The position numbers and the translations under genes are program-made. Below the pieces are notes generated by a model that was not told the origin of the DNA, made no database searches, and worked only from the letters and a program-made list of their open reading frames with translations. From a virus, in IMG/VR virus record IMGVR_UViG_3300013103_000056, positions 1 to 25,433 of that record: a stretch of 25,433 nucleotides of DNA, one strand, 5' to 3'. Position 1 is the first letter of the stretch; the number at the start of each line of letters is the position of its first letter. This document shows positions 436 through 23,229 of this stretch, piece by piece.

Positions 436-1589
436 ATAGGTATACTACTGATTCAACTAGTGTTATTTCAATAGATGATGCTACATGTGATATTAGTTTA
501 TATATAGAAAGTGGATTATCATATGCAACAGGACAGACTGTTATTATTGCGTATGATGAAAATAATAGGATAGAAGGAACAGTTTCTTCTTATAATCCAG
601 CAACTGGTTTAATATATGTATGTCCAACTTCAAAAACTGGTTCTGGTATATATAGTCAATGGATAGTTTCATTATCAGGTGCTCCGGGACCAGCAGGAAG
701 TTCGGGAACATCAGGTAGCTCAGGTACATCAGGATCTAGTGGAATTTCGGGTACTTCAGGAAGTTCGGGAACATCAGGTAGCTCAGGTACATCAGGATCT
801 AGTGGTACATCAGGATCGAGTGGTATATCTGGTACATCAGGAAGCTCTGGTACTAGCGGTTCGAGTGGAACGTCTGGTTCAAGTGGAAGTAGTGGTACAT
901 CTGGATCTAGTGGAGTAAGTGGTACCTCAGGTAGTTCAGGGATATCTGGATCTTCAGGTAGTTCAGGGACAAGTGGTTCATCTGGAACCTCAGGATCTAG
1001 TGGAGTTTCGGGTACATCTGGTAGTTCAGGGATATCTGGATCTTCAGGAAGTTCAGGGACAAGTGGTTCATCTGGAACAGGTGGTACCTCAGGAAGTTCA
1101 GGAACTTCAGGTTCAAGCGGAGTAAGTGGCACTTCAGGATCTAGTGGTACCTCTGGTACTAGTGCATCAGGCATCTATTATGATTCAACAGCAAATGAAG
1201 TTGTTTATTTTGATGAAATAAGAAGTAAAACTTTAAGTACTTCGTTAATAGTTCAAAGTTTTGGGACAAATAACTCAAACACAACAAACCAATATTTAAG
1301 GTTATCTGGAAATGTTCCATGTAATTTAAATGGTTTTGTTTTACCATTTGATGCTACATTAGTTGGAATTAGTATGTCTGAAAATCTAGCAACAGAAACT
1401 TGGACTGCACAGGTAGGACGTAATAATGTTGCTATTGCTTTAGATTCACTAACTATAAATAATCAACGGGAAAATCACGATTATACAAAAGATACAAATT
1501 TTAATGAAGGTGACCGAGTACAAGTATATTGTAGCGGAAACTCTATTGAATATCCATTCGTTACTCTATTTTTTAGGAGAAGGATATAA
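3..1589 (+). CDS. Collagen-like tail fibre protein (5' end outside window)
   Basis: The frame is open from the first bases of the window to the stop at 1587-1589, so the true start lies upstream; the methionine at 1374 is internal. Order: a Gly-X-Y collagen-like tract of GSS/GTS triplets (nt 3-435), a compact beta-rich insert (about 436-690, containing SGLSYATGQTVIIAYD), a second collagen-like tract (690-1165) and a non-repetitive C-terminal tip (1166-1589, ending FVTLFFRRRI). Collagen-like stalks with globular tips are known from phage tail fibres, where they form trimers; that this is a receptor-binding or whisker fibre is inferred. The stop overlaps the next gene's start by one base (TAATG), so the two are probably translated together. 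No host-binding domain was recognised in the tip. Confidence 0.85.
   Translation, partial: SSGSSGTSGSSGSSGTSGTSGSSGVSGTSGSSGTSGSSGSSGTSGSSGTSGSSGLSGTSGSSGLSGTSGSSGTSGSSGSSGTSGSSGTSGSSGTSGSSGSSGTSGSSGTSGTSGTSGSSGSSGTSGSSGTGGSSGTSGSSGSSGDRYTTDSTSVISIDDATCDISLYIESGLSYATGQTVIIAYDENNRIEGTVSSYNPATGLIYVCPTSKTGSGIYSQWIVSLSGAPGPAGSSGTSGSSGTSGSSGISGTSGSSGTSGSSGTSGSSGTSGSSGISGTSGSSGTSGSSGTSGSSGSSGTSGSSGVSGTSGSSGISGSSGSSGTSGSSGTSGSSGVSGTSGSSGISGSSGSSGTSGSSGTGGTSGSSGTSGSSGVSGTSGSSGTSGTSASGIYYDSTANEVVYFDEIRSKTLSTSLIVQSFGTNNSNTTNQYLRLSGNVPCNLNGFVLPFDATLVGISMSENLATETWTAQVGRNNVAIALDSLTINNQRENHDYTKDTNFNEGDRVQVYCSGNSIEYPFVTLFFRRRI
690..1165 (+). repeat. Collagen-like GSS/GTS coding repeat, tract 2
   Basis: Second Gly-Ser-Ser/Gly-Thr-Ser tract of the same protein, beginning after a classic collagen-like GAPGPAG. 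Codons are again scrambled, although short stretches (for example aggaagttcgggaacatcag) recur. Confidence 0.9.
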
Positions 1590-3727
1590 TGGCATTTAGA
1601 ATTACAACAACTGGAGTTTTAAGTCCAGTTATATTCTATGATTTGGGAGAGCGCAGTTTTACTCATCCAACAACAGATTATGATTTACAATTAGAATTTG
1701 GTAGAGAAGAGATTCGAACATCTTATGATGTTCAAAATTCTATTGATAATAATTGGATAACAGTAAAGGATGCATTTGGTAATACTCTTACAAACGTGAC
1801 TGAAACAGTTTCTCATGGTGAATCAGCTGGTTTACTAAGGGACGATCATACACAATATCCTCTTCTTGAGACTACAAGTGAAAGAGTCAAAATTAATACA
1901 GTTAATTCACAACATAATGATATTTTAACATATGATTCGACTAGTGGAAATTATATAAATTTATCTGGAGGCTCTGGTCAAGCTGGGACATCAGGATCTT
2001 CTGGAACAGGAGGGTCAAGTGGAACAAGTGGCTCATCTGGCATATCAGGAACATCAGGTAGTAGTGGAAGTTCTGGTTCTTCGGGGACCTCTGGTTCATC
2101 TGGAGTCTCTGGGACTTCAGGATCATCAGGTACAAGTGGGGTAGATGGTACTTCAGGATCAAGTGGAGCTTCAGGTAGTTCAGGGACTTCTGGCTCTAGT
2201 GGAACAAGTGGTACATCAGGAAGTTCAGGAACTTCAGGGGAGGATGGGACAAGTGGTTCATCTGGATCGAGTGGGATTAGTGGAACATCTGGATCTTCAG
2301 GTTCGAGTGGAACTTCTGGATCATCAGGAGTTAGTGGTACAAGCGGGTCAAGTGGTATATCAGGTACTTCGGGGTCATCAGGAACTTCTGGAACAAGTGG
2401 TAGTTCAGGGACATCCGGCTCGTCAGGGTCTTCTGGAAATAGTGGTACTTCTGGGTCTTCGGGTTCGTCAGGCTCTTCGGGAACTTCCGGGTCGAGTGGA
2501 AACTCGGGTACTTCTGGATCTAGTGGAGATAGTGGTACATCTGGTTCATCAGGAACTAGTGGATCTTCAGGAATATCAGGTAGTTCAGGATCTTCTGGAA
2601 CTAGTGGAATTTCAGGGACATCAGGAAGTTCAGGAATAAGTGGTACTTCTGGATCTTCTGGTTCATCAGGTACTTCTGGACAGGGTGGAACAAGTGGTTC
2701 ATCAGGGACATCAGGACAAGACGGTACTAGCGGAAGTAGTGGTACTTCTGGAACATCTGGGGAACCTGATGATTTACCTGTAGTTCAAGTTAGAAGGTCA
2801 ACAAATTATACTTTACCAGGAGCTTATGCTGATATTACATTTGATTTGATAGATGTTGAAACTAACAGTTCAATTTTAGAGCATGATAATGTTAACACCG
2901 AAAGGATTAATATAAAAGACGATGGTCTTTATATGATTACCTTTTCAGCAACTATTGATGCTGATGCTGGTGAGGATATATTTGATTTCAGAGCTGTCTT
3001 GAATGGTTCGACTCAAATACCAGGGAGTATCAGATCTATCAGTGAAGACGATGAAAAAAATGATGTAAGTAATGTTTTCTTTTATGATATGACTTCTGGA
3101 GATTATGTAACATTTCAATGTCGAACTAGTGGTGGAACAAATATTCTTCTACCAGATAGTACATTTACTGTAATGAAAGCTCAAGGGTCTAAAGGTTTTG
3201 ATGGAGCACAAGGTCCACCAGGTTCTGGATCGTCTATTAATGTTCAAGATGAAGGATCATATATTGCTAATTCTCCCGTTACAACGTTAAATTTTGTGGG
3301 AAATGATGTTACCGCTAGTGTAGGCGATAGTACTACTGCAGATATTACTATCTCACCAATATTTGGCTCTGAATTTCAACAAACAAAAGATGATACAGAA
3401 TCTTCGACCACAAGTACAACTTTTCAACAGAAACTAAGAATGACTACAACAAACTTACCATATGGAACTTATCGTATAGGTTTTTATCTTGAAACTTGGC
3501 AATCGAACGCTGGTGATGCAGTAGAATGGCAAGTAGAATTAAATGATACAACAGTTATTGCAACTGCAGAACAAGAACCAGATGATGTACATGATAGATT
3601 CTCATATGGTGGTTTTGATTATCAGTCTTTATCTGGAGTTAATACAATAGATATTGATTGGAGACAACAACGCGGTTCAACTGCATATATTAAGAGAGCG
3701 AGGTTAGAATTATGGAGGGTTAGTTAA
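1589..3727 (+). CDS. Collagen-like tail fibre protein 2
   Basis: 712 residues. The N-terminal part (about 1-128) contains SHGESAGLLRDDHTQYPLL, a form of the HG..aGL..DDH.QY motif seen in many phage fibre attachment regions. Residues about 130-395 are a collagen-like GSS/GTS stalk. Residues about 396-530 look like a C1q/TNF-type beta-sandwich (ERINIKDDGLYMITFSATI). A short GAQGPPG hinge and a linker follow (to about 590), then a C-terminal beta domain ending IKRARLELWRVS. The start overlaps the upstream stop (TAATG) with aggaga just upstream. The C-terminal domain resembles the C-terminal half of the next protein (IRRVRVGLK), so the fibre tip and its neighbour share a module. Role as fibre, whisker or appendage is inferred from architecture and position. 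Confidence 0.85.
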   Translation: MAFRITTTGVLSPVIFYDLGERSFTHPTTDYDLQLEFGREEIRTSYDVQNSIDNNWITVKDAFGNTLTNVTETVSHGESAGLLRDDHTQYPLLETTSERVKINTVNSQHNDILTYDSTSGNYINLSGGSGQAGTSGSSGTGGSSGTSGSSGISGTSGSSGSSGSSGTSGSSGVSGTSGSSGTSGVDGTSGSSGASGSSGTSGSSGTSGTSGSSGTSGEDGTSGSSGSSGISGTSGSSGSSGTSGSSGVSGTSGSSGISGTSGSSGTSGTSGSSGTSGSSGSSGNSGTSGSSGSSGSSGTSGSSGNSGTSGSSGDSGTSGSSGTSGSSGISGSSGSSGTSGISGTSGSSGISGTSGSSGSSGTSGQGGTSGSSGTSGQDGTSGSSGTSGTSGEPDDLPVVQVRRSTNYTLPGAYADITFDLIDVETNSSILEHDNVNTERINIKDDGLYMITFSATIDADAGEDIFDFRAVLNGSTQIPGSIRSISEDDEKNDVSNVFFYDMTSGDYVTFQCRTSGGTNILLPDSTFTVMKAQGSKGFDGAQGPPGSGSSINVQDEGSYIANSPVTTLNFVGNDVTASVGDSTTADITISPIFGSEFQQTKDDTESSTTSTTFQQKLRMTTTNLPYGTYRIGFYLETWQSNAGDAVEWQVELNDTTVIATAEQEPDDVHDRFSYGGFDYQSLSGVNTIDIDWRQQRGSTAYIKRARLELWRVS
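1975..2765 (+). repeat. Collagen-like GSS/GTS coding repeat, tract 3
   Basis: Roughly 260 residues of Gly-Ser-Ser/Gly-Thr-Ser triplets with occasional Asp, Asn, Ile, Val and Gln substitutions (GQDG, GVDG, GEDG). Same sequence type as the two tracts in the preceding gene, so homologous exchange between the genes is possible. Confidence 0.9.
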
Positions 3728-5782: not shown

Positions 5783-6811
5783 ATGAAGTTATGTGAATAT
5801 GGATGTGGCAGAGAAGCAAAATTTCAATTTAAAAATAGGAAATGGTGTTGTAGTGATTTTCATTCTAAATGTCCAGAAATAAAAAAGAGAACATCTAGAG
5901 ATTTATCTGGTAAGAATAACCCGATGTATGGTAGAAGCCATTCTAAAGAAGCAATTAAAAAAATGAGCGAAGCAAAAAAAGGGAAAGAAGCTTGGAATAA
6001 AGGATCAAAACATACAGAAGAAACAAAGAGTAAAATATCTCAACAATTAAAAGGAAGAGTAAGTCATAAAAAAGGAAAGTCAATAAGTAATGAAACGAAG
6101 GAAAAAATTTCAAGGAATAATGGTAAGGGGATGTTAGGTAAGAAACATTCAAATAAAGCAAAGGAAAAAATTAGTAAAGCAGTTAAGGGTAACAGTGCAT
6201 GGAATAAAGGAAAAGTCGGAGGTTATTCTAAGGAAACTCGAAAAAAAATGAGTATTTCGCATAGATTTACTATTAAAGACTTCAGAGAATTACATCCCTT
6301 CTTCTCACAAATTGAAGAAATGAGATATAACCCAGATAAACCAGGAGAAAAAGAAATTCAGGTACATTGTAAAAATCATTTATGTCCAAATTCAAAAGAA
6401 CAGAACGGTTGGTTTACACCAAGTAAGAACCAAATGTTTGAAAGAATAAGACAACTTGAAAATAAAGATGGAAATGGTGGTAGTTATTTTTACTGTTCAG
6501 AAGAATGTAAAAATATTTGTCCATTATATGGCTTGAGATCTGATCCGCTTCAAAATACTGAAAAAACATACACTCAAGAAGAATATCAGCAATTTAGGGA
6601 ATTTGTTTTAATTAGAGACAACTACCAATGTCAATATTGTGGCGATCTAGCAACTGAAGTTCACCACGAACGCCCTCAAAAATTGGAACCATTTTTTGCA
6701 CTTGATCCAGAATTAGCTTGGAGTTGTTGTAAAAAATGTCACTATAAATATGGACATAAAATTGGCAGTGAATGTAGTACTGGAAATTTAGCTAACTTAC
6801 AATGTATATAG
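5783..6811 (+). CDS. HNH homing endonuclease 1 with NUMOD3 repeats
   Basis: 342 residues. An N-terminal Cys cluster (CEYGCG ... WCC ... C) is a probable zinc finger. Residues about 45-160 hold repeated NUMOD3-type DNA-binding segments (GKNNPMYGRSHSKEAIKKM; GKKHSNKAKEKISKAVKG). Next is a second Cys region (HCKNHLCPNS ... YFYCSEECKNICP), then a C-terminal HNH nuclease: C283xxC286, H294-H295, C316xxC319-H320. Free-standing HNH/NUMOD3 enzymes cut target DNA and spread their own gene by recombination. It sits alone between structural genes with good spacing (aaggagaactt ATG), so it disrupts nothing obvious. It is a close relative of the enzyme at 13754-14830, with which it shares 72 identical consecutive bases. 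Confidence 0.92.
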   Translation: MKLCEYGCGREAKFQFKNRKWCCSDFHSKCPEIKKRTSRDLSGKNNPMYGRSHSKEAIKKMSEAKKGKEAWNKGSKHTEETKSKISQQLKGRVSHKKGKSISNETKEKISRNNGKGMLGKKHSNKAKEKISKAVKGNSAWNKGKVGGYSKETRKKMSISHRFTIKDFRELHPFFSQIEEMRYNPDKPGEKEIQVHCKNHLCPNSKEQNGWFTPSKNQMFERIRQLENKDGNGGSYFYCSEECKNICPLYGLRSDPLQNTEKTYTQEEYQQFREFVLIRDNYQCQYCGDLATEVHHERPQKLEPFFALDPELAWSCCKKCHYKYGHKIGSECSTGNLANLQCI

Positions 6812-12849: not shown

Positions 12850-13770
12850 ATGGCAAAAACTTTTAAAGAGCAAGTAATACATTTAGGCAAAACGACTCTT
12901 TTGAATAATAGAGAAATAGCTCGAATTGTTGGTTGTTCTGAAAAGACTGTTAGTAAATATGCTGGATCATTTACTAATAGATGCAAATTCAAGACATCAA
13001 AAGATGTTGATATGTTTGAGATTCAAAAAACAATTTTACTTCCAGATATTCATTATCCTCATTATGATGAACGAGTAATGGATTCAGTTGGTGAATTTAT
13101 AGTTGACTATCAACCACACGAAATAGTGTATATGGGAGATCAACTATCACTGGATTGTATTTCGTGGTGGCATAGGAAAAAACCTCTATTAAAAGAAGGA
13201 CAAAGATTAATAAAAGATTATAAAAATTTTGATAGAGATATATTACAAGTTCACGAAGCTCTTACTGGTCCAGAAACTAGAAGAACTTTTATGATAGGAA
13301 ACCATGAAGAAAGAGTAAATTGGTATATTGAACAACATCCTGAGTTAGAAGATTTAATAGATATAGATCGAAATTTAAAACTTACAAAACGTGGTTATAA
13401 GATTGTTCCATATAATGGTATTTATAAGATTGGAAAGCTCTCATTAATTCATGGTTTTTACTGGAATAAATATCATGCAGCAAAAACTCTTGAAGCTTTT
13501 GAGGGAAATGTTGTTTATGGACATGTTCATAATCCCCAAATGTTTGCTAAAGTTACTCCAGTAGATAGAAAAGGTTATCATACAGCGACAGCCCTTCCTT
13601 GCCTTTGTAATATTAAACCTGATTATAAAAAGAATGCGCCGAATTTCTGGATAAATGGTTTTGGGATTGTGGAGTGGTTACCTGCTACAAAATTATTTAA
13701 CCTCTATACAATAATAATAGTTGAAAGTACATTTATGTGGAATGGTAAACTTTATGGTGGAAATTTTTAG
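12850..13770 (+). CDS. Calcineurin-like metallophosphoesterase with N-terminal HTH
   Basis: 306 residues. A helix-turn-helix (about 19-38, NREIARIVGCSEKTVSKYA) precedes the phosphoesterase domain. Two-metal motifs are complete: D66-x-H68 (LLPDIHYPHYDE), G96-D97 (YMGDQLS), GNHE 150-153, H201 (LIHGFYWN) and GHVH 224-227. Such enzymes cleave phosphoesters of nucleic acids, nucleotides or proteins; the HTH suggests action at DNA, by inference. The final residues (MWNGKLYGGNF) are encoded where the homing endonuclease gene begins, so 17 bp are shared. An own promoter-like motif lies upstream. Confidence 0.88.
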   Translation: MAKTFKEQVIHLGKTTLLNNREIARIVGCSEKTVSKYAGSFTNRCKFKTSKDVDMFEIQKTILLPDIHYPHYDERVMDSVGEFIVDYQPHEIVYMGDQLSLDCISWWHRKKPLLKEGQRLIKDYKNFDRDILQVHEALTGPETRRTFMIGNHEERVNWYIEQHPELEDLIDIDRNLKLTKRGYKIVPYNGIYKIGKLSLIHGFYWNKYHAAKTLEAFEGNVVYGHVHNPQMFAKVTPVDRKGYHTATALPCLCNIKPDYKKNAPNFWINGFGIVEWLPATKLFNLYTIIIVESTFMWNGKLYGGNF

Positions 13771-14830
13771 AGTATGTGATTATGGCTGTGGCCAAAAAGC
13801 AAAATATTATTTTCCAACTGTTGGTAAATGGTGTTGTAGTAAAAGTCAAAATTCTTGTTTAGAAATGAGAAAGAAAAATAGTAGTTTACAAAAAGGAGAA
13901 AAATCAGCGTGGTATGGGAAAAAACACTCTCAGGAAGCTAAAGATAAAATAAGAAAAGCAAATAAAGGAAAAAAACATTCCCAAGAAACTAAAGAAAAAA
14001 TAAGAAAAGCAAATAAAGGAAAAAAACATTCCCAAGAAACTAAAGAAAAAATAAGAAAATCGAGTAAAAATATTAGTGAAGAAACTAGAGAAAAAATGAG
14101 TAACTCACAAAAAGGGAGAAAGCATTCTGAAGAAACTAAAAGGAAAATAGGAAAACAAAATAAAGGAAAAAATAATCCAATGTTTGGAAGAGTTGGTGAG
14201 GATCATCCAATATATGGAAGAAGGTTATCTATAGAAGAGAGAAAAAGAATAAGTCAAATAAATAAAGGAAAAAATAATCATGGTTATTTAACAATTGAAA
14301 AAATTAAAAAACGATATCCATTCTTTTCACAAATAGAAAAACTTCGTTATAACCCAGATAAACCCGGAGAAAAAGAAATTCAAGTTCACTGTAAAAACCA
14401 TCTATGCCCAAATTCAAAAGAACAAGATGGATGGTTCACACCTTCTAGAACACAATTAGCAGAAAGAATAAGACAACTTGAAAATAAAGATGGAAATGGT
14501 GGTAGTTATTTTTACTGTTCAGAAGAATGTAAAGAGCAGTGCCCGCTTTTTAATTTAAAATCAGATCCTTTAAAAGAAACTGAAAAATCATATACCCAAG
14601 AAGAATATGAAATTTTTAGAAAATTTGTTTTAGAACGAGACAATTACCAATGTCAATATTGTGGTGAATCAGCAAATATTATTCACCATGAACGTCCTCA
14701 AAAATTAGAACCATTTTTTGCACTTGACCCAGATCTTACATGGTCTGTTTGTGAAAAATGCCATTATAAATATGGACATAAAACTAGCACAGAATGTAGT
14801 ACTGGAAATTTAGCAAAAAAGGTTTGTTAA
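13754..14830 (+). CDS. HNH homing endonuclease 2 with NUMOD3 repeats
   Basis: 358 residues from ATG 13754 (an in-frame ATG at 13721 is also open, but the relative at 5783 starts right before its CEYGCG, matching RVCDYGCG here). N-terminal Cys cluster; then five or more NUMOD3 units (KGKKHSQETKEKIRKAN, twice in nearly identical DNA; KGRKHSEETKRKIGKQ; GKNNPMFGR); then PFFSQIEKLRYNPDKPGEKE, a Cys region and a C-terminal HNH (CQYCGE ... HHERPQ ... CEKCHYKYGHK). There is no good ribosome binding site and the start lies inside the phosphoesterase gene, so translation may be coupled. A selfish DNA endonuclease lodged at the 3' end of a host-phage gene. Confidence 0.92.
   Translation: MVEIFRVCDYGCGQKAKYYFPTVGKWCCSKSQNSCLEMRKKNSSLQKGEKSAWYGKKHSQEAKDKIRKANKGKKHSQETKEKIRKANKGKKHSQETKEKIRKSSKNISEETREKMSNSQKGRKHSEETKRKIGKQNKGKNNPMFGRVGEDHPIYGRRLSIEERKRISQINKGKNNHGYLTIEKIKKRYPFFSQIEKLRYNPDKPGEKEIQVHCKNHLCPNSKEQDGWFTPSRTQLAERIRQLENKDGNGGSYFYCSEECKEQCPLFNLKSDPLKETEKSYTQEEYEIFRKFVLERDNYQCQYCGESANIIHHERPQKLEPFFALDPDLTWSVCEKCHYKYGHKTSTECSTGNLAKKVC
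13946..14059 (+). repeat. 51-bp tandem repeat coding for NUMOD3 units
   Basis: A 63-bp stretch (13946-14008) is repeated exactly at a 51-bp offset (13997-14059), i.e. 17 codons per unit. A diverged third unit lies just upstream. Recent slippage or duplication inside the DNA-binding region of the endonuclease. Confidence 0.85.
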
Positions 14831-18522: not shown

Positions 18523-20460
18523 ATGGCTAATGTCTCACCGGGTGTCTATACTAAAATTATAGACCTTTCGCAATTCGTCCAAGCAGTCCCTTCAACAATT
18601 GGATTCATTTCTGCTATTACAGAAAAGGGAGAAGATAATGTTCTTAAGTTTATCGGATCCAGAGCAGACTTTATCTCAGAATTTGGTGAACCAAATATTT
18701 CAACTTATGGTAAAAACTACGGGCAAGGACCATATTGTGCGTATAATTATCTAGGTGAAGCTGGTTCACTTTATTTTATGAGATGTCTTCCATATAATGC
18801 TGCATATGCAAATATAAGAATTGATGCTACGTTAGCAGCAGCTGATAATACAGCATCAATGAAAGTTACTTATATTGAAGGTATCAACACTGAAGAAGAA
18901 TTTGGTACTAATTTGCAGAATGTAGGGGATGATTATCCAATTTGCTTCTTACGTCCAATTGGAAGGGGTCAATGGTATAACGTTCTTGGAATAAGGTTAA
19001 CGGAGGTTTCAAATCCAACCTTCTGGGATACTTACATTCTTGACATCTATGAAAAACAGTCAGATGGTCAAGAAGTGATTATTGAATCGTTTGAAGTTTC
19101 ATTCGATCCTAAAGCAAGAGATACAGCTGGAAGCTCGATTTGGATTGTTGACATTTTGAATTTGTACTCAACAGTTCTAAGAGCAGAAATGTATAAAGAT
19201 GCAAATGCAGAGACTTTCTCAGATGGATATGATATTAATATTCGTGTTTATGATAAAGAAATTGGTACAACATCAGTTACATTGACTAATGGTTCAGCTG
19301 AAATTACAGATATTAAACAAGATTTCTCTGATTGGGAATCTAATGATTATGTTATAATTGCTAAGGATGCCAGAGGAACTGAAATTTGGGGTTGGTTAGG
19401 AGCCGCAAGTGGAACAGACGATGAAAGCATTTCTGTTTACTCAGATAGAGGATTAACTATTCAAAATTGGAATGGAGAAATTACATCTTTTGATATTAGT
19501 ACTGATATTGAGTATAGAATCAAAAAATCTTGGGGTTCTGTTGCTCAAGCATTTACTTCATCTGAACCAGTTCCATTGAGAAAAGGTAGTGATGGAGATC
19601 TATTACAAGCTGATGGTTCTCTTGATACTGCTGAAGCTACAACATTATTAAGTCAAGCATATAATGGAATTATTGATGATAATGTATTAGATACTGAGAA
19701 TATTTACTTCTCAATGGTATTTGATTGTGGTTATCCAGATGATGTTAAGAGTTCTATTAGTACACTATGTCAAACAAGACGTGACTGTGTTGGCATTCTT
19801 GATAATGGTGATAATGCTTCAGTTACCTTAGCTCTAAATGAAAGAAACAATACTCATACATATAACAATTATTTTGTTGCTTTATATGAATCATATAATA
19901 AAGTCTTTGATAGTTTTACTGGACAAGATGTATGGTTCTCACCAGTATATCATATGTCATATATCTTACCAAGAAATGACACTGTTGCAGAGATTTGGTT
20001 TGCAGCAGCTGGATATGAGAGAGCAGCAATTGACACAATTAAAGAGTTGAGATTTAATCCAAGATTGGGTGAGAGAGATCAACTTTATTTGAAACAATTA
20101 AATCCAATAGTTAAGTTTAATCCTGGTTATGTTGTTTGGGGTCAATTGACCAGTCAAGCAAAGGCTAGTGCATTACAAGACTTAAATATTGTAAGACTTG
20201 TTCTTTATATTAAGAGAGCGTTTGAAGATTTCTGTCGGTTCTTTATATTTGAGCAAAACGATCAAATTACTTGGTCATTAGTTGCAACTCAACTTGTTGA
20301 ATTCCTTGAAACTATTAGGAAGAAACGTGGTCTATATGACTACTCAGTTGAAGTTGGAGCTACTGATTATGAAATGAAAACAAAGAAATTCCATGTTAAT
20401 GTTACTTTAGAGCCAACGAGAGTTGTTGAGCAAATTGAGTTGAATTTCTTTATTCAATAA
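18523..20460 (+). CDS. Tail sheath protein (T4 gp18-like)
   Basis: 645 residues, ggagg 7 bases before the ATG. It starts MANVSPGVYTKIIDLSQFVQ, the typical beginning of contractile sheath proteins, with VPSTIGFISAITEKGEDNV next. The C-terminal region has the sheath-family features NPGYVVWGQLTSQAK (about 545), LQDLNIVRLVLYIKRAFEDF and a final beta part (TLEPTRVVEQIELNFFIQ). The sheath surrounds the tail tube and contracts to drive it into the host envelope. It is followed by a strong terminator, and the tube gene comes only after the radical-SAM cassette and a HAD gene, so the usual sheath-tube adjacency is interrupted. Confidence 0.95.
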   Translation: MANVSPGVYTKIIDLSQFVQAVPSTIGFISAITEKGEDNVLKFIGSRADFISEFGEPNISTYGKNYGQGPYCAYNYLGEAGSLYFMRCLPYNAAYANIRIDATLAAADNTASMKVTYIEGINTEEEFGTNLQNVGDDYPICFLRPIGRGQWYNVLGIRLTEVSNPTFWDTYILDIYEKQSDGQEVIIESFEVSFDPKARDTAGSSIWIVDILNLYSTVLRAEMYKDANAETFSDGYDINIRVYDKEIGTTSVTLTNGSAEITDIKQDFSDWESNDYVIIAKDARGTEIWGWLGAASGTDDESISVYSDRGLTIQNWNGEITSFDISTDIEYRIKKSWGSVAQAFTSSEPVPLRKGSDGDLLQADGSLDTAEATTLLSQAYNGIIDDNVLDTENIYFSMVFDCGYPDDVKSSISTLCQTRRDCVGILDNGDNASVTLALNERNNTHTYNNYFVALYESYNKVFDSFTGQDVWFSPVYHMSYILPRNDTVAEIWFAAAGYERAAIDTIKELRFNPRLGERDQLYLKQLNPIVKFNPGYVVWGQLTSQAKASALQDLNIVRLVLYIKRAFEDFCRFFIFEQNDQITWSLVATQLVEFLETIRKKRGLYDYSVEVGATDYEMKTKKFHVNVTLEPTRVVEQIELNFFIQ

Positions 20461-20470
20461 TTAATTAGAC

Positions 20471-20508
20471 AAAAAAAGAGTCCCTAAGAAAATAGGGACT
20501 CTTTTTTT
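20471..20508. terminator. Strong bidirectional intrinsic terminator
   Basis: A perfect 16-bp stem: a run of A then gagtcccta (20471-20486), loop agaaaa, and tagggactc then a run of T (20493-20508). It begins 10 bases after the sheath stop and serves both strands because of its A and T tracts. Confidence 0.92.
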
Positions 20509-20536: not shown

Positions 20537-20647
20537 TTATTTATTTTCAATTACCTTATTTTGGTATTCTGTAATTTGTTTTGCTTTCTCGTAACTCTCT
20601 TTAAGAAACTTTCCATCTAGAAAATGAAATGTATTAATCACAGTCAA
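20537..20647 (-). CDS. Possible small ORF or gene remnant downstream of radical-SAM cassette
   Basis: 36 codons on the minus strand from TTG 20647 (or GTG 20641) to TAA 20539-20537, reading VINTFHFLDGKFLKESYEKA then KQITEYQNKVIENK. It looks protein-like (amphipathic, polar C-terminus) but the start signal is weak (aagg). It abuts the outside of the left inverted repeat, so it may be the surviving 3' end of a gene interrupted by the cassette. Function unknown. Confidence 0.35.
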   Translation of the reverse strand: MTVINTFHFLDGKFLKESYEKAKQITEYQNKVIENK

Positions 20648-20735
20648 TTACCTTGACCACAAGGGTACGAGGTTTTCTCGCGTCAAACTTATAAAGTTGA
20701 ATTAGAGTTTGTAACAAAATCAGTTTTATTTTCAA
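20634..20735 (-). CDS. Possible small ORF running through the left inverted repeat
   Basis: 33 codons from TTG 20735, with ggag (20748-20745) 9 bases upstream, directly after the radical-SAM stop. The product begins KIKLILLQTLIQLYK and continues through the repeat as FDARKPRTLVVKVIDCD. The right repeat copy, read outward on the plus strand, encodes DARKPRTLVVEVV but has no start codon. Real gene or chance reading of the repeat is undecided. Confidence 0.35.
   Translation of the reverse strand: MKIKLILLQTLIQLYKFDARKPRTLVVKVIDCD
20651..20690. repeat. Left inverted repeat of the radical-SAM cassette
   Basis: 40 bp matching the reverse complement of 21812-21850 with two substitutions and one indel. 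Core accacaagggt, then cgaggttttctcg, which is itself a hairpin, then cgtcaa. Confidence 0.85.
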
Positions 20736-20748
20736 ATGTTTTATCTCC

Positions 20749-21738
20749 TCACAATTCTGCTGGACATATATTTTTATATGTTTTTAATTCGTGCCTATAT
20801 TTTATAAATATTGGGGATGATTCCCAAATTTCGTGTATACCCATTTTTTCTGTTATTGGAACTCCAAGATTATGATTTTCAAAACTACATGGCAACAATT
20901 TCATATCTGGAGTTATATAAGCAGAGCACCTAGCAGCTTCGCATGTATCAATAGAAATCTCTTGTATTTTGCTTGGCTTGATATATTTTAATACATGGTT
21001 TACTAGACAACTATCCATCCCCACTTTGAATTGGCATTTTGGAACAAAAATATTTTCTGCAAATTCTTTTAACTGATCATTAGTTGGGGTCCAGTTTAAA
21101 TTTCTACCTGCTCCCTGTGGTTTAAACAAAAGAAAAATAATAGCATTCAATCGTCTAATATCAACGTTACCTTCCCAAGTATATTTTCCCTTAATAATAT
21201 TAATTGCTTTGTCATGTGATTCTGAAGAATAAATAAAATGGATGTTTGTTTTGATATTAGCATTCATAAGTTTTTTAAGTGCTTGATATGTATAAGGTTT
21301 ATCATAGGCACTTACAGCAACTGCCCCACACATTTTTGATAGATTAATTTCTCGATTCGTTAAATTAATTCCGCTTGTAGTATAATTAGGAACCACATTT
21401 TTAAATCTGCTATATTCTAAAATCTCCTTGAAATTTTCGTGATGGTTTGGATCTCCTCTACCTCCTAATGCTACTTGATTTGTGTGATATGAAATTTCGT
21501 CTAGAACTCTTTTAAAATCTTCTAATTTCATATTTGGTTGTGAGATATGATCTTGATAACAAAATTTACATTTGTTTTTACAATGTCCCATAACTCCTGC
21601 ATCTAAAAGAGAAGGTAAAACCAATGAAAAGGGATCATCCTTTCCATTTATTCCTGTTAGAACTTCAAAACCTGTCTTGGTATTAAATACCATCTTATAG
21701 TCATCATTAGAAAAATATCTTATTCTATTACTTTCCAT
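20749..21738 (-). CDS. Radical SAM protein, SPASM/twitch-like C-terminus
   Basis: 329 residues from ATG 21738; aaaggagaa lies 5 bases upstream, so the earlier ATG 21753 is unlikely. C53xxxC57xxC60 (GHCKNKCKFCYQ) is the canonical ligand set for the 4Fe-4S cluster that cleaves S-adenosylmethionine; GGRGDP (92-97) is the GGE-like SAM contact. C-terminal cysteines at 235, 244, 266, 271, 284 and 325 suggest an auxiliary cluster, as in SPASM/twitch maturases that modify peptides or proteins. It ends soon after C325, lacking the usual closing Cys cluster, so it may be a shortened form. Sits alone on the minus strand between sheath and tube genes, within inverted repeats. Substrate unknown. Confidence 0.85.
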   Translation of the reverse strand: MESNRIRYFSNDDYKMVFNTKTGFEVLTGINGKDDPFSLVLPSLLDAGVMGHCKNKCKFCYQDHISQPNMKLEDFKRVLDEISYHTNQVALGGRGDPNHHENFKEILEYSRFKNVVPNYTTSGINLTNREINLSKMCGAVAVSAYDKPYTYQALKKLMNANIKTNIHFIYSSESHDKAINIIKGKYTWEGNVDIRRLNAIIFLLFKPQGAGRNLNWTPTNDQLKEFAENIFVPKCQFKVGMDSCLVNHVLKYIKPSKIQEISIDTCEAARCSAYITPDMKLLPCSFENHNLGVPITEKMGIHEIWESSPIFIKYRHELKTYKNICPAEL

Positions 21739-21775
21739 TTTTTCTCCTTTCATAAAAAATAGGCAAGATGTTTCT

Positions 21776-21795
21776 TCACTTATTAATATATATAG
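21776..21795 (-). promoter_or_regulatory. Minus-strand promoter-like motif, copy 2
   Basis: On the minus strand CTATATATATTAATAAGTGA, 37 bases before the radical-SAM ATG (21738) and inside the right inverted repeat. Matches 19 of 20 bases of copy 1 at 16556-16575. Confidence 0.55.
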
Positions 21796-21811
21796 ATTTT
21801 ACCTTTTTATT

Positions 21812-21850
21812 AAGTTGACGCGAGAAAACCTCGCACCCTTGTGGTCGAGG
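21812..21850. repeat. Right inverted repeat of the radical-SAM cassette
   Basis: 39 bp, inverted partner of 20651-20690. The inner hairpin gcgagaaaacctcgc has 5 bp here; in the left copy the outermost pair is G-T instead of G-C, so the hairpin is kept. Outer edges of the two repeats span exactly 1200 bp. Confidence 0.85.
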
Positions 21851-21877
21851 TTGTTCATAGAACGATATCTATCATTT

Positions 21878-21914: not shown

Positions 21915-22439
21915 ATGAGAGTTATTGATAAAATTTTAGAAAAAAAAGTTCAGGATGATGAATCAGTTGGTTCATTTGCTATTGACTTATTCCCTAAAAA
22001 GAAGAAGAAAAGGAAACGACAAATTATTAGAACTATATATCCGGAATCGAAAGATGAAAAACTTCCACGTAGGGCAATGATTGATTTAGATGGTACGATT
22101 CATAAATACTCAAAAGGATTTCAAGATGGAAGTATTTATGATGATCCTTTTGACGGGGCACGAGAAGTTATCAATTGGTTACGAAATCAAGGATTTGAAA
22201 TTGTTATATTTACTACAAGAGCATCTCAAGCAAATTCTGATGAAACGGGTATTAGCAATTCTGAACAGATTAATAAAATTTCAAAATGGTTAACAGATAA
22301 TGGGATTTATTTTGACAAAATTACAGGTGAAAAATTAGCGGGTGAATTTTACATTGATGATCGAGCAATTCATATAAAAGATGGTGATTGGAACACAGTG
22401 TTAAATGTGATTAAAAAACGTATTAATTATAAAACTTAA
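21915..22439 (+). CDS. HAD-superfamily phosphatase
   Basis: 174 residues. A basic N-terminal extension (KKKKKRKRQ, 28-36) precedes a compact HAD domain: motif I D57-x-D59-G-T (MIDLDGTIHK), motif II T100-T101 (IVIFTTRAS), motif III K140 (TGEKLAG), motif IV D148-D149 (FYIDDRAIH). No sizeable cap domain. These enzymes remove phosphate from nucleotides, sugars or nucleic-acid ends; the resemblance to small phage HAD phosphatases makes nucleotide or end-repair activity possible. The start has only a weak ribosome binding site (ggtgtaat) but a good promoter-like motif. A complete gene. Confidence 0.85.
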   Translation: MRVIDKILEKKVQDDESVGSFAIDLFPKKKKKRKRQIIRTIYPESKDEKLPRRAMIDLDGTIHKYSKGFQDGSIYDDPFDGAREVINWLRNQGFEIVIFTTRASQANSDETGISNSEQINKISKWLTDNGIYFDKITGEKLAGEFYIDDRAIHIKDGDWNTVLNVIKKRINYKT

Positions 22440-22494: not shown

Positions 22495-23229
22495 ATGACT
22501 ATGAAATATAGCTTTGCTGAACTTGGTCAAAATATTTTAACAAGAAAATTTGGTGGAACAACTGTAGGTGTTGCTGATCCCTACGTTACTGGTTATCATT
22601 TCATATGGTTTGATAAACTTCCAACAAAGTTAGCTGAATTTATTTCAACAAATGGTTTAAGTGGTATTTCAGCCACTGGTGAAATTCAAACTGTATTAGC
22701 TGCCTCTTGTTTATCTGTCACTCCTCCAGGAGGTACATTAAATAAGATTGAATATGCTGGTTTGGGTGGTTTGAAATGGGCAGTTCCAGGAAACGTTGAT
22801 TATGGTAATACTGTCTCTGTAAAGTTCTTAGAGTTCAACAAAACTCCAATCTTAGATATTATACATAATTGGGTTAAGTTAATTCGTGACTATAGAACTG
22901 GTATTACTGATTTAGAAGATGGTGATGGTGGTGAAGGTTATACAAAGAAAACTTATGCTGGTTTGATGTATTACTGGACAACTGCTCCTGATGCAAAAAC
23001 AGTTGAATATTATGCTTGTTATGATGGTATTTTTCCAGCGAAAGATCCACAAGATTTATATACTAGTGATGTTGAAACAGTTGGTCGACTAGATATAGAA
23101 ATTGAATTTAATGTTGACTATGCTTGGCATGAAAAGTGGGTCTATGATAAATGTGTATCATTTGCAAGCGACTTTGCTAAAATCAAAGATACAGTTAATG
23201 ATTATGGTTATAGACAATCGTCTGGATAA
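22495..23229 (+). CDS. Tail tube protein (T4 gp19-like)
   Basis: 244 residues; aggagg lies 7 bases before the ATG. Contains segments typical of myovirus tubes: YVTGYHFIWFDKLPTKLAEF, then a beta part (GGLKWAVPGNVDYGNTVSVKF) and the helix LDIIHNWVKLIRDYRTG, ending IEIEFNVDYAWHEKWVYDKC. It forms the inner tube of the contractile tail through which DNA passes. The 3' end (YGYRQSSG) and its downstream spacer are duplicated at 24607-24662. Confidence 0.88.
   Translation: MTMKYSFAELGQNILTRKFGGTTVGVADPYVTGYHFIWFDKLPTKLAEFISTNGLSGISATGEIQTVLAASCLSVTPPGGTLNKIEYAGLGGLKWAVPGNVDYGNTVSVKFLEFNKTPILDIIHNWVKLIRDYRTGITDLEDGDGGEGYTKKTYAGLMYYWTTAPDAKTVEYYACYDGIFPAKDPQDLYTSDVETVGRLDIEIEFNVDYAWHEKWVYDKCVSFASDFAKIKDTVNDYGYRQSSG

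Follow-up and report, generated by a model that had tools for sequence, protein, structure and literature searches.

In Haloquadratum walsbyi, palindrome-associated transposable elements (PATEs) are ~52-bp terminal-only remnants of IS605-type elements, formed by repeat-mediated deletion (PMC3119063). End hairpins of IS605 are dispersed without a transposase gene on Borrelia plasmids, where they are described as free-standing stem-loop motifs (PMC2775950). REP and REPIN sequences are short palindromes tied to Y1 transposases, in their case TnpA_REP (PMC8266576, PMC3116915). Among radical-SAM enzymes, the peptide-modifying maturases SuiB and SkfB each act on one short precursor peptide.

We analysed a 25,433-nt stretch of viral DNA (the window) in which two inverted repeats flank one radical-SAM gene. 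By sequence comparison, each repeat appears to be its own copy of a 48-nt, core-deleted, transposase-less, terminal-only element derived from IS200/IS605, which places such elements in tailed phages, where they would be usable for studying single-strand transposition by a host transposase. Like the PATEs, the element seems to have lost its core between similar near-terminal palindromes, lacks terminal inverted repeats (TIRs) and target duplication, and is present or absent at syntenic sites. Unlike them, it resides in bacteriophages, measures 48 nt, follows a TTTAT target and carries a hairpin of the clostridial IS605/IscB kind. Whereas the Borrelia motifs are described as standing free, the phage element retains both cleavage-side flanks with one hairpin and has an exact empty site. 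It differs from REP/REPIN in having no GTAG tag, in its low copy number (1–4 per fragment) and in keeping both transposon termini. SuiB and SkfB are the best structural matches of the modelled phage enzyme, but share only 12–14% identity with it; the phage C-terminus is shorter, with four cysteines, and its putative targets would be not a single short precursor but many unrelated proteins that have an N-terminal motif in common. The overall explanation, which combines the element, a resident gene and modification of that motif, is in our judgement likely. Within it, the element is well supported, and the link between enzyme and motif is a strong, testable proposal.

Inverted repeats around a radical-SAM gene

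The inverted repeats are real and far above chance level. Their arms (20650–20695 and 21806–21851) are 46 nt long and 89% complementary without gaps, and the longest exact stretch (TTGACGCGAGAAAACCTCG) is 19 bp, whereas 30 first-order shuffles of the window average 14.8 and never exceed 17. This bears out the original prediction, which had called the repeats near-identical and had placed a single minus-strand radical-SAM gene between them (one ORF, 20749–21753), itself between the tail sheath gene (18523–20460) and the HAD (21915–22439) and tube (22495–23229) genes. The hairpin described for each repeat also exists, with one pair differing as C–G versus T–G (C–A on the opposite strand), but this pair is internal to the stem and not the outermost one, as had been proposed. 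The promoter-like motif assigned to the gene did not stand out, since the region contains 7 promoter-like sites against 8.1 expected by chance. An ordinary hairpin terminator, another inverted-repeat pair in the window, follows the sheath gene (20471–20508). Its loop at 20487–20492 reads AGAAAA in the window and TTTTCT in two relatives that are nearly identical to it, L001 and L002; the loop is exactly inverted inside the palindrome.

The repeats had been taken for the defined ends of a discrete mobile or invertible unit. Comparison with related phages counts against this, and both of the checks that had been named as able to refute the proposal went against it. L001 has both copies, and L002, a 99% relative, has the left copy only. 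Between their sheath and HAD/tube genes, the five contigs L017–L021 carry the gene (55–58% identical products) at the corresponding place, on the opposite strand and without any element. Searched elsewhere, the repeat proved widespread without the gene, with single copies at unrelated sites in other phage contigs. What survives of the claim is an origin from a mobile element, for each repeat on its own.

Two specific forms of the joint unit fare no better. A composite or TIR-type transposon, in which the 46-nt arms serve as TIRs and the whole 1.2-kb segment is mobile with the gene as its cargo, would account for near-identical inverted arms around one gene. It is highly improbable, being already contradicted by L002, which has the gene with one arm, and by the armless gene at the same place in L017–L021; the arms also occur singly elsewhere, no relative examined shows arms and gene at another site or gives any sign that the gene and both arms moved together, and the segment encodes no transposase. 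Moreover, a single IS200/IS605-type unit cannot be bounded by two copies in opposite orientations. An invertible switch, flipping the gene by recombination between the arms, deserves just as little credence: homologous recombination between 46-nt inverted arms is conceivable, but the orientation of the gene relative to the sheath and tube genes is identical in the window, L001, L002 and L017–L021, no recombinase is visible, and L002 lacks one arm. We therefore reject the cassette. Two insertions of such a small transposon remnant, though unrelated, can mimic one exactly.

A 48-nt element with the ends of IS200/IS605 transposons

The right element occupies 21811–21858 on the plus strand, behind the target pentanucleotide TTTAT (21806–21810), and ends in the tail TTGTTCAT. 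Exactly these 48 nt are missing from L002, whose site reads TTTTTAT/AGAACG instead of TTTTTAT/48 nt/AGAACG (a slash marks an element boundary) and retains the target. The left element (20643–20690) reads from left end to right end on the minus strand, behind its own TTTAT (20691–20695; ATAAA on the plus strand), identified by sequence comparison, and ends in the tail TAATTGAC. Boundaries were set from the empty site and from relatives; that of the left copy, for which no empty site was seen, is a putative one, with an identical 48-nt register in L001, L002, L003 and L004. Because L002 lacks only the right copy, the two arms must have arrived or left separately. Insertion occurs 3′ of a fixed short target without target duplication, as judged from one direct empty site in one relative, which could also have arisen by precise excision and need not be ancestral.

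A scan of bacterial genomes and phages connected the element to complete transposons. The core CCTCGTACCCTTGTGGTCGAGG, with TTTAT in front, forms the end of IS elements that carry either tnpA (Y1_Tnp) with a divergent tnpB (L028 and L007) or a HEARO RNA, an iscB gene (RRXRR and HNH domains) and tnpA (L022). Left end and hairpin together are found in intact IS200/IS605 transposons of Clostridia, beside tnpA/tnpB or iscB, and the 16-nt core recurs without mismatch, preceded by TTTAT, in L028, L007 and L030. Read in the tnpB direction, the left ends have the form TTTAT/..AAAACCTCGTACCCTTGTGGTCGAGG.. and the right ends ..CCCCTTGTGG(G)..GGGGTAAGTTCAC/ or ..TCATTGAC/. The ends opposite the core terminate in TAAGTTCAC/ (L028 and L007) or TCATTGAC/ (L022), and a right-end-like sequence in L175 terminates in TAATTGAC/; all of these match the tails of the short copies. 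The tails TTCAC and TTGAC come after a CCCTTGTGG hairpin. The short phage copies, TTTAT/AAGTTTGACGCGAGAAAACCTCGTACCCTTGTGGTCGAGGTAATTGAC/, thus run from the left end through the hairpin directly into a right-end tail. TTTAT precedes all near-consensus phage copies and all IS ends that we read, and TTCAT takes its place in a divergent copy in phage G011 (locus L046, position 2515). TTTAT is the reverse complement of ATAAA, the target-adjacent motif reported for an IscB (PMC13180657). Four of the eight pattern matches in bacterial genome contigs, one in Streptomyces and three in Burkholderiales/Limnohabitans, had neither TTTAT nor the LE context and were judged to be chance.

These features suggest how the element may have formed. 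The ancestor would have carried a similar hairpin at either end, and would have lost its core and one hairpin, most simply through recombination between the two. The product would be a left end, one hairpin and a right-end tail (TTGAC, TTCAC or TTCAT) behind a TTTAT target. It would most likely move as single strands, with a TnpA (Y1 HUH) transposase provided in trans, and enter 3′ of TTTAT without duplicating the target. Identity to both transposon ends, the exact empty site, and presence or absence at four matching positions of two other, syntenic phages were observed directly; mobilization in trans and the identity of the transposase are inferences. We assume such a transposase because no TnpA/Y1 transposase was found in the phage records with the short element, which are fragments, or in a 223-kb relative. 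Scans of phages and bacterial genome contigs also yielded no autonomous parent with the same left end, and BLAST of the 1.3-kb region against phages returned no match. We consider it very likely that the repeats are two independent insertions of this one 48-nt non-autonomous element.

Further copies allowed us to weigh whether the repeat is instead a conserved cis-acting signal (promoter, terminator or riboswitch) at many phage genes. Most phage copies directly precede a gene of the same sense, one of them a folE2-like gene in L003; the hairpins fold on both strands, and the right copy scores as terminator-like. Phages G003, G004 and G011 each have the element at two sites. G003 and G011 are syntenic over ~23 genes with 29–63% protein identity, and all four sites (G003 10287 and 17029; G011 21271 and 22863) are occupied in one phage and empty in the other, although the element sequence is nearly identical between them. 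Near-identity combined with absence from these sites speaks for a probable recent spread and against a conserved regulatory signal, and the riboswitch or promoter idea raised by the folE2-upstream copy was dropped on this synteny. In addition, IS elements with tnpA end in the same sequence, its fold energies do not clearly surpass those of shuffled sequences, and when the window and 12 loci were searched with Rfam for riboswitches, the sole match was HEARO in L022. A conserved signal is thus very unlikely, and the mobile element is the reading we retain; individual copies could have been taken over as signals. G011 has two further damaged or divergent IS200/605-type copies (L046, 2368 and 2515), one of which extends to the start codon, upstream of the motif gene and second radical-SAM gene described below. 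Separately, these phages encode homologues of the multi-subunit RNA polymerase β and β′ together with a FolE2-like enzyme (L003 2611–9173 and L046 11674–14379).

The radical-SAM gene and its broken partner

The radical-SAM gene (20749–21753, minus strand) encodes 334 residues of the phrog_7293 family. Its product has core cysteines in the arrangement CKNKCKFC and four further conserved cysteines in a short, SPASM/twitch-like C-terminus. Taken alone, the protein matches Pfam Radical_SAM at E = 3.6e-6 and 27.7 bits, just below the 29.5-bit cut-off; all 13 of 13 family members match. The family conserves CxxxCxxC, GGRGDP-like residues and the four C-terminal cysteines, and CxxxCxxC together with the predicted radical-SAM fold places the protein in the Radical SAM superfamily. 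Pfam SPASM matches 5 of the 13 members, the window copy not among them, and no NCBIfam equivalog reached its cut-off (best match, 36.8 bits against 380).

In a PDB comparison of the AlphaFold model (pLDDT 87), the nearest structures are those of two peptide maturases, SuiB and SkfB, followed by viperins and PqqE, with matches to 5v1s (E = 1.3e-11; TM-score 0.66 by query) and 6efn (E = 3.4e-10). SkfB is also the best PDB match by sequence. Peptide modification is the natural reading of the family. A viperin-type defence role for the window enzyme drew weak matches only and was rejected. G011 encodes a second, different radical-SAM protein, which is viperin-like (pVip, E = 4e-14) and lies directly after a motif gene (MKIKSDFITNSSSTSY) at L046:2566–3995.

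In L017–L021, the radical-SAM gene is followed by a partner gene whose product starts MKIK(S/T)DFVTNSSSSSF; the two mostly overlap by 4 to ~30 nt and lie 155 nt apart in L021. At this place the window holds the decayed start of such a gene (20696–20745, minus strand), with TTG for ATG and a 1-nt deletion. The remnant reads KTDFVTNSNST or KTDFVTNSSST before a stop in the window (KTDFVTNSNST), L001 and L002, and is broken ~14 codons in, where the left element begins. The region past that element has no similarity to known motif proteins. We are accordingly highly confident that the radical-SAM gene is a resident rather than cargo, and that the left element sits at the break of its partner gene, the original start of which was MKIKxDFVTNSSSSSF. 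The insertion may have killed the partner or may have landed in an already dying gene. The three radical-SAM genes of the window type differ by too few changes to prove continued selection. If the enzyme modifies the motif, the window phage would use it on tagged proteins encoded elsewhere in the genome.

A shared N-terminal motif and its candidate modifying enzyme

The association of the enzyme with this motif is more surprising than the repeat pair, and matters more. The motif is N-terminal and spans 16 residues, with the consensus MKI[KR]x[DG]FV[TS]NSSSSSF; its DNA pattern occurs in at least 120 stretches of the viral collection. Over all loci we collected 218 distinct motif ORFs. With the first 22 residues removed, 205 protein bodies fell into 59 clusters at E = 1e-3; the motif is common to dozens of otherwise unrelated phage protein families. 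Serine codons within it are split almost evenly between TCN and AGY (491:524), which argues that it is kept as a peptide and not as DNA. Tandem arrays of 5 to 8 motif proteins lie within a few kilobases in L106 (a 548-kb contig), L083 and L096.

Among the matches listed, 80 loci chosen by the motif alone contained 150 motif ORFs and 15 radical-SAM-like ORFs. Twelve of the 15 lie on the same strand as, and touch, a motif ORF of the DFVTN or DFITN type (gap −52 to +19 nt), and ten of these twelve belong to the family of the window enzyme. The pair extends to bacteria: a serine-rich pattern matched 7 times among 391 clostridial-class genomes, two of the matches (L051 and L054) having a MKI[KR]xDFVTNSSST-type start, and in L054 a radical-SAM gene adjoins the motif gene as in the phages. 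In many phages of the GFVSN type, the radical-SAM gene is not adjacent to motif genes.

Co-occurrence was counted with the family profile A3, because the general Pfam Radical_SAM model is too unspecific in jumbo phages. The family is present in 22 of 25 contigs chosen by the motif (101–548 kb), nearly always exactly once, and in one of 26 chosen by a terminase motif (122–311 kb). This one, Klebsiella phage KP15, is also the sole member of its set with motif genes, which include KP15_102 and one at 66.5–67 kb; the first motif pattern had missed it by excluding CGN arginine codons, and a wider pattern found it. With KP15 counted in the motif group, the family occurs in 23 of 26 large contigs with the motif and in 0 of 25 without (Fisher P = 1.5e-11), for genomes that are not phylogenetically independent, controls that are mostly T4-like and contigs whose completeness is not established.

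These data raise the question of what the enzyme acts on. It had been proposed that a phage-encoded SPASM-like maturase modifies a virion or host protein. Protein modification gains support from the motif linkage and the co-occurrence, but the likely targets are N-terminally tagged phage proteins and not a virion protein picked by map position. Should the enzyme act on sheath, tube or another target, its link to the motif would come merely from both belonging to large phages. That alternative fits the map position in this phage group, flanked by sheath and tube genes, and also three motif-bearing contigs of 114–162 kb, of unestablished completeness, without the family. We regard it as unlikely: in KP15 the gene (KP15_135) is found at 90 kb among small hypothetical genes that follow one another, radical-SAM genes with such a neighbour overlap motif genes and not sheath or tube genes, in a Clostridium as well as in phages, and all 25 motif-free large contigs lack the family.

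We favour, with some reservation, an enzyme that modifies the shared N-terminal motif that phages place on many unrelated proteins. The evidence consists of adjacency and co-occurrence, a genetic linkage to a conserved peptide motif of the kind expected for a radical-SAM enzyme that acts on a leader peptide. Slightly better than even, in our estimate, is the broader proposal that large phages use one dedicated radical-SAM enzyme on many substrates, modifying a common 16-residue tag on dozens of unrelated proteins, often in tandem arrays. Such a tagging system has no described counterpart in the papers searched, and the motif strings were not found there as a phage protein motif, within a partial coverage of the literature. 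The link ties phrog_7293, a family annotated without function, to a peptide motif spread over many uncharacterized protein families; it might explain many hypothetical phage genes at once and is testable in the cultured phage KP15.

Two other features of the window deserve mention. Two NUMOD3 proteins (5783–6811 and 13721–14830) resemble homing endonucleases and are related to ones in G003 and G004. A virion-like protein (1589–3727) contains a long SGTSGSSG repeat with collagen-like spacing, and the long overlapping ORFs in other frames are artefacts of this repeat.
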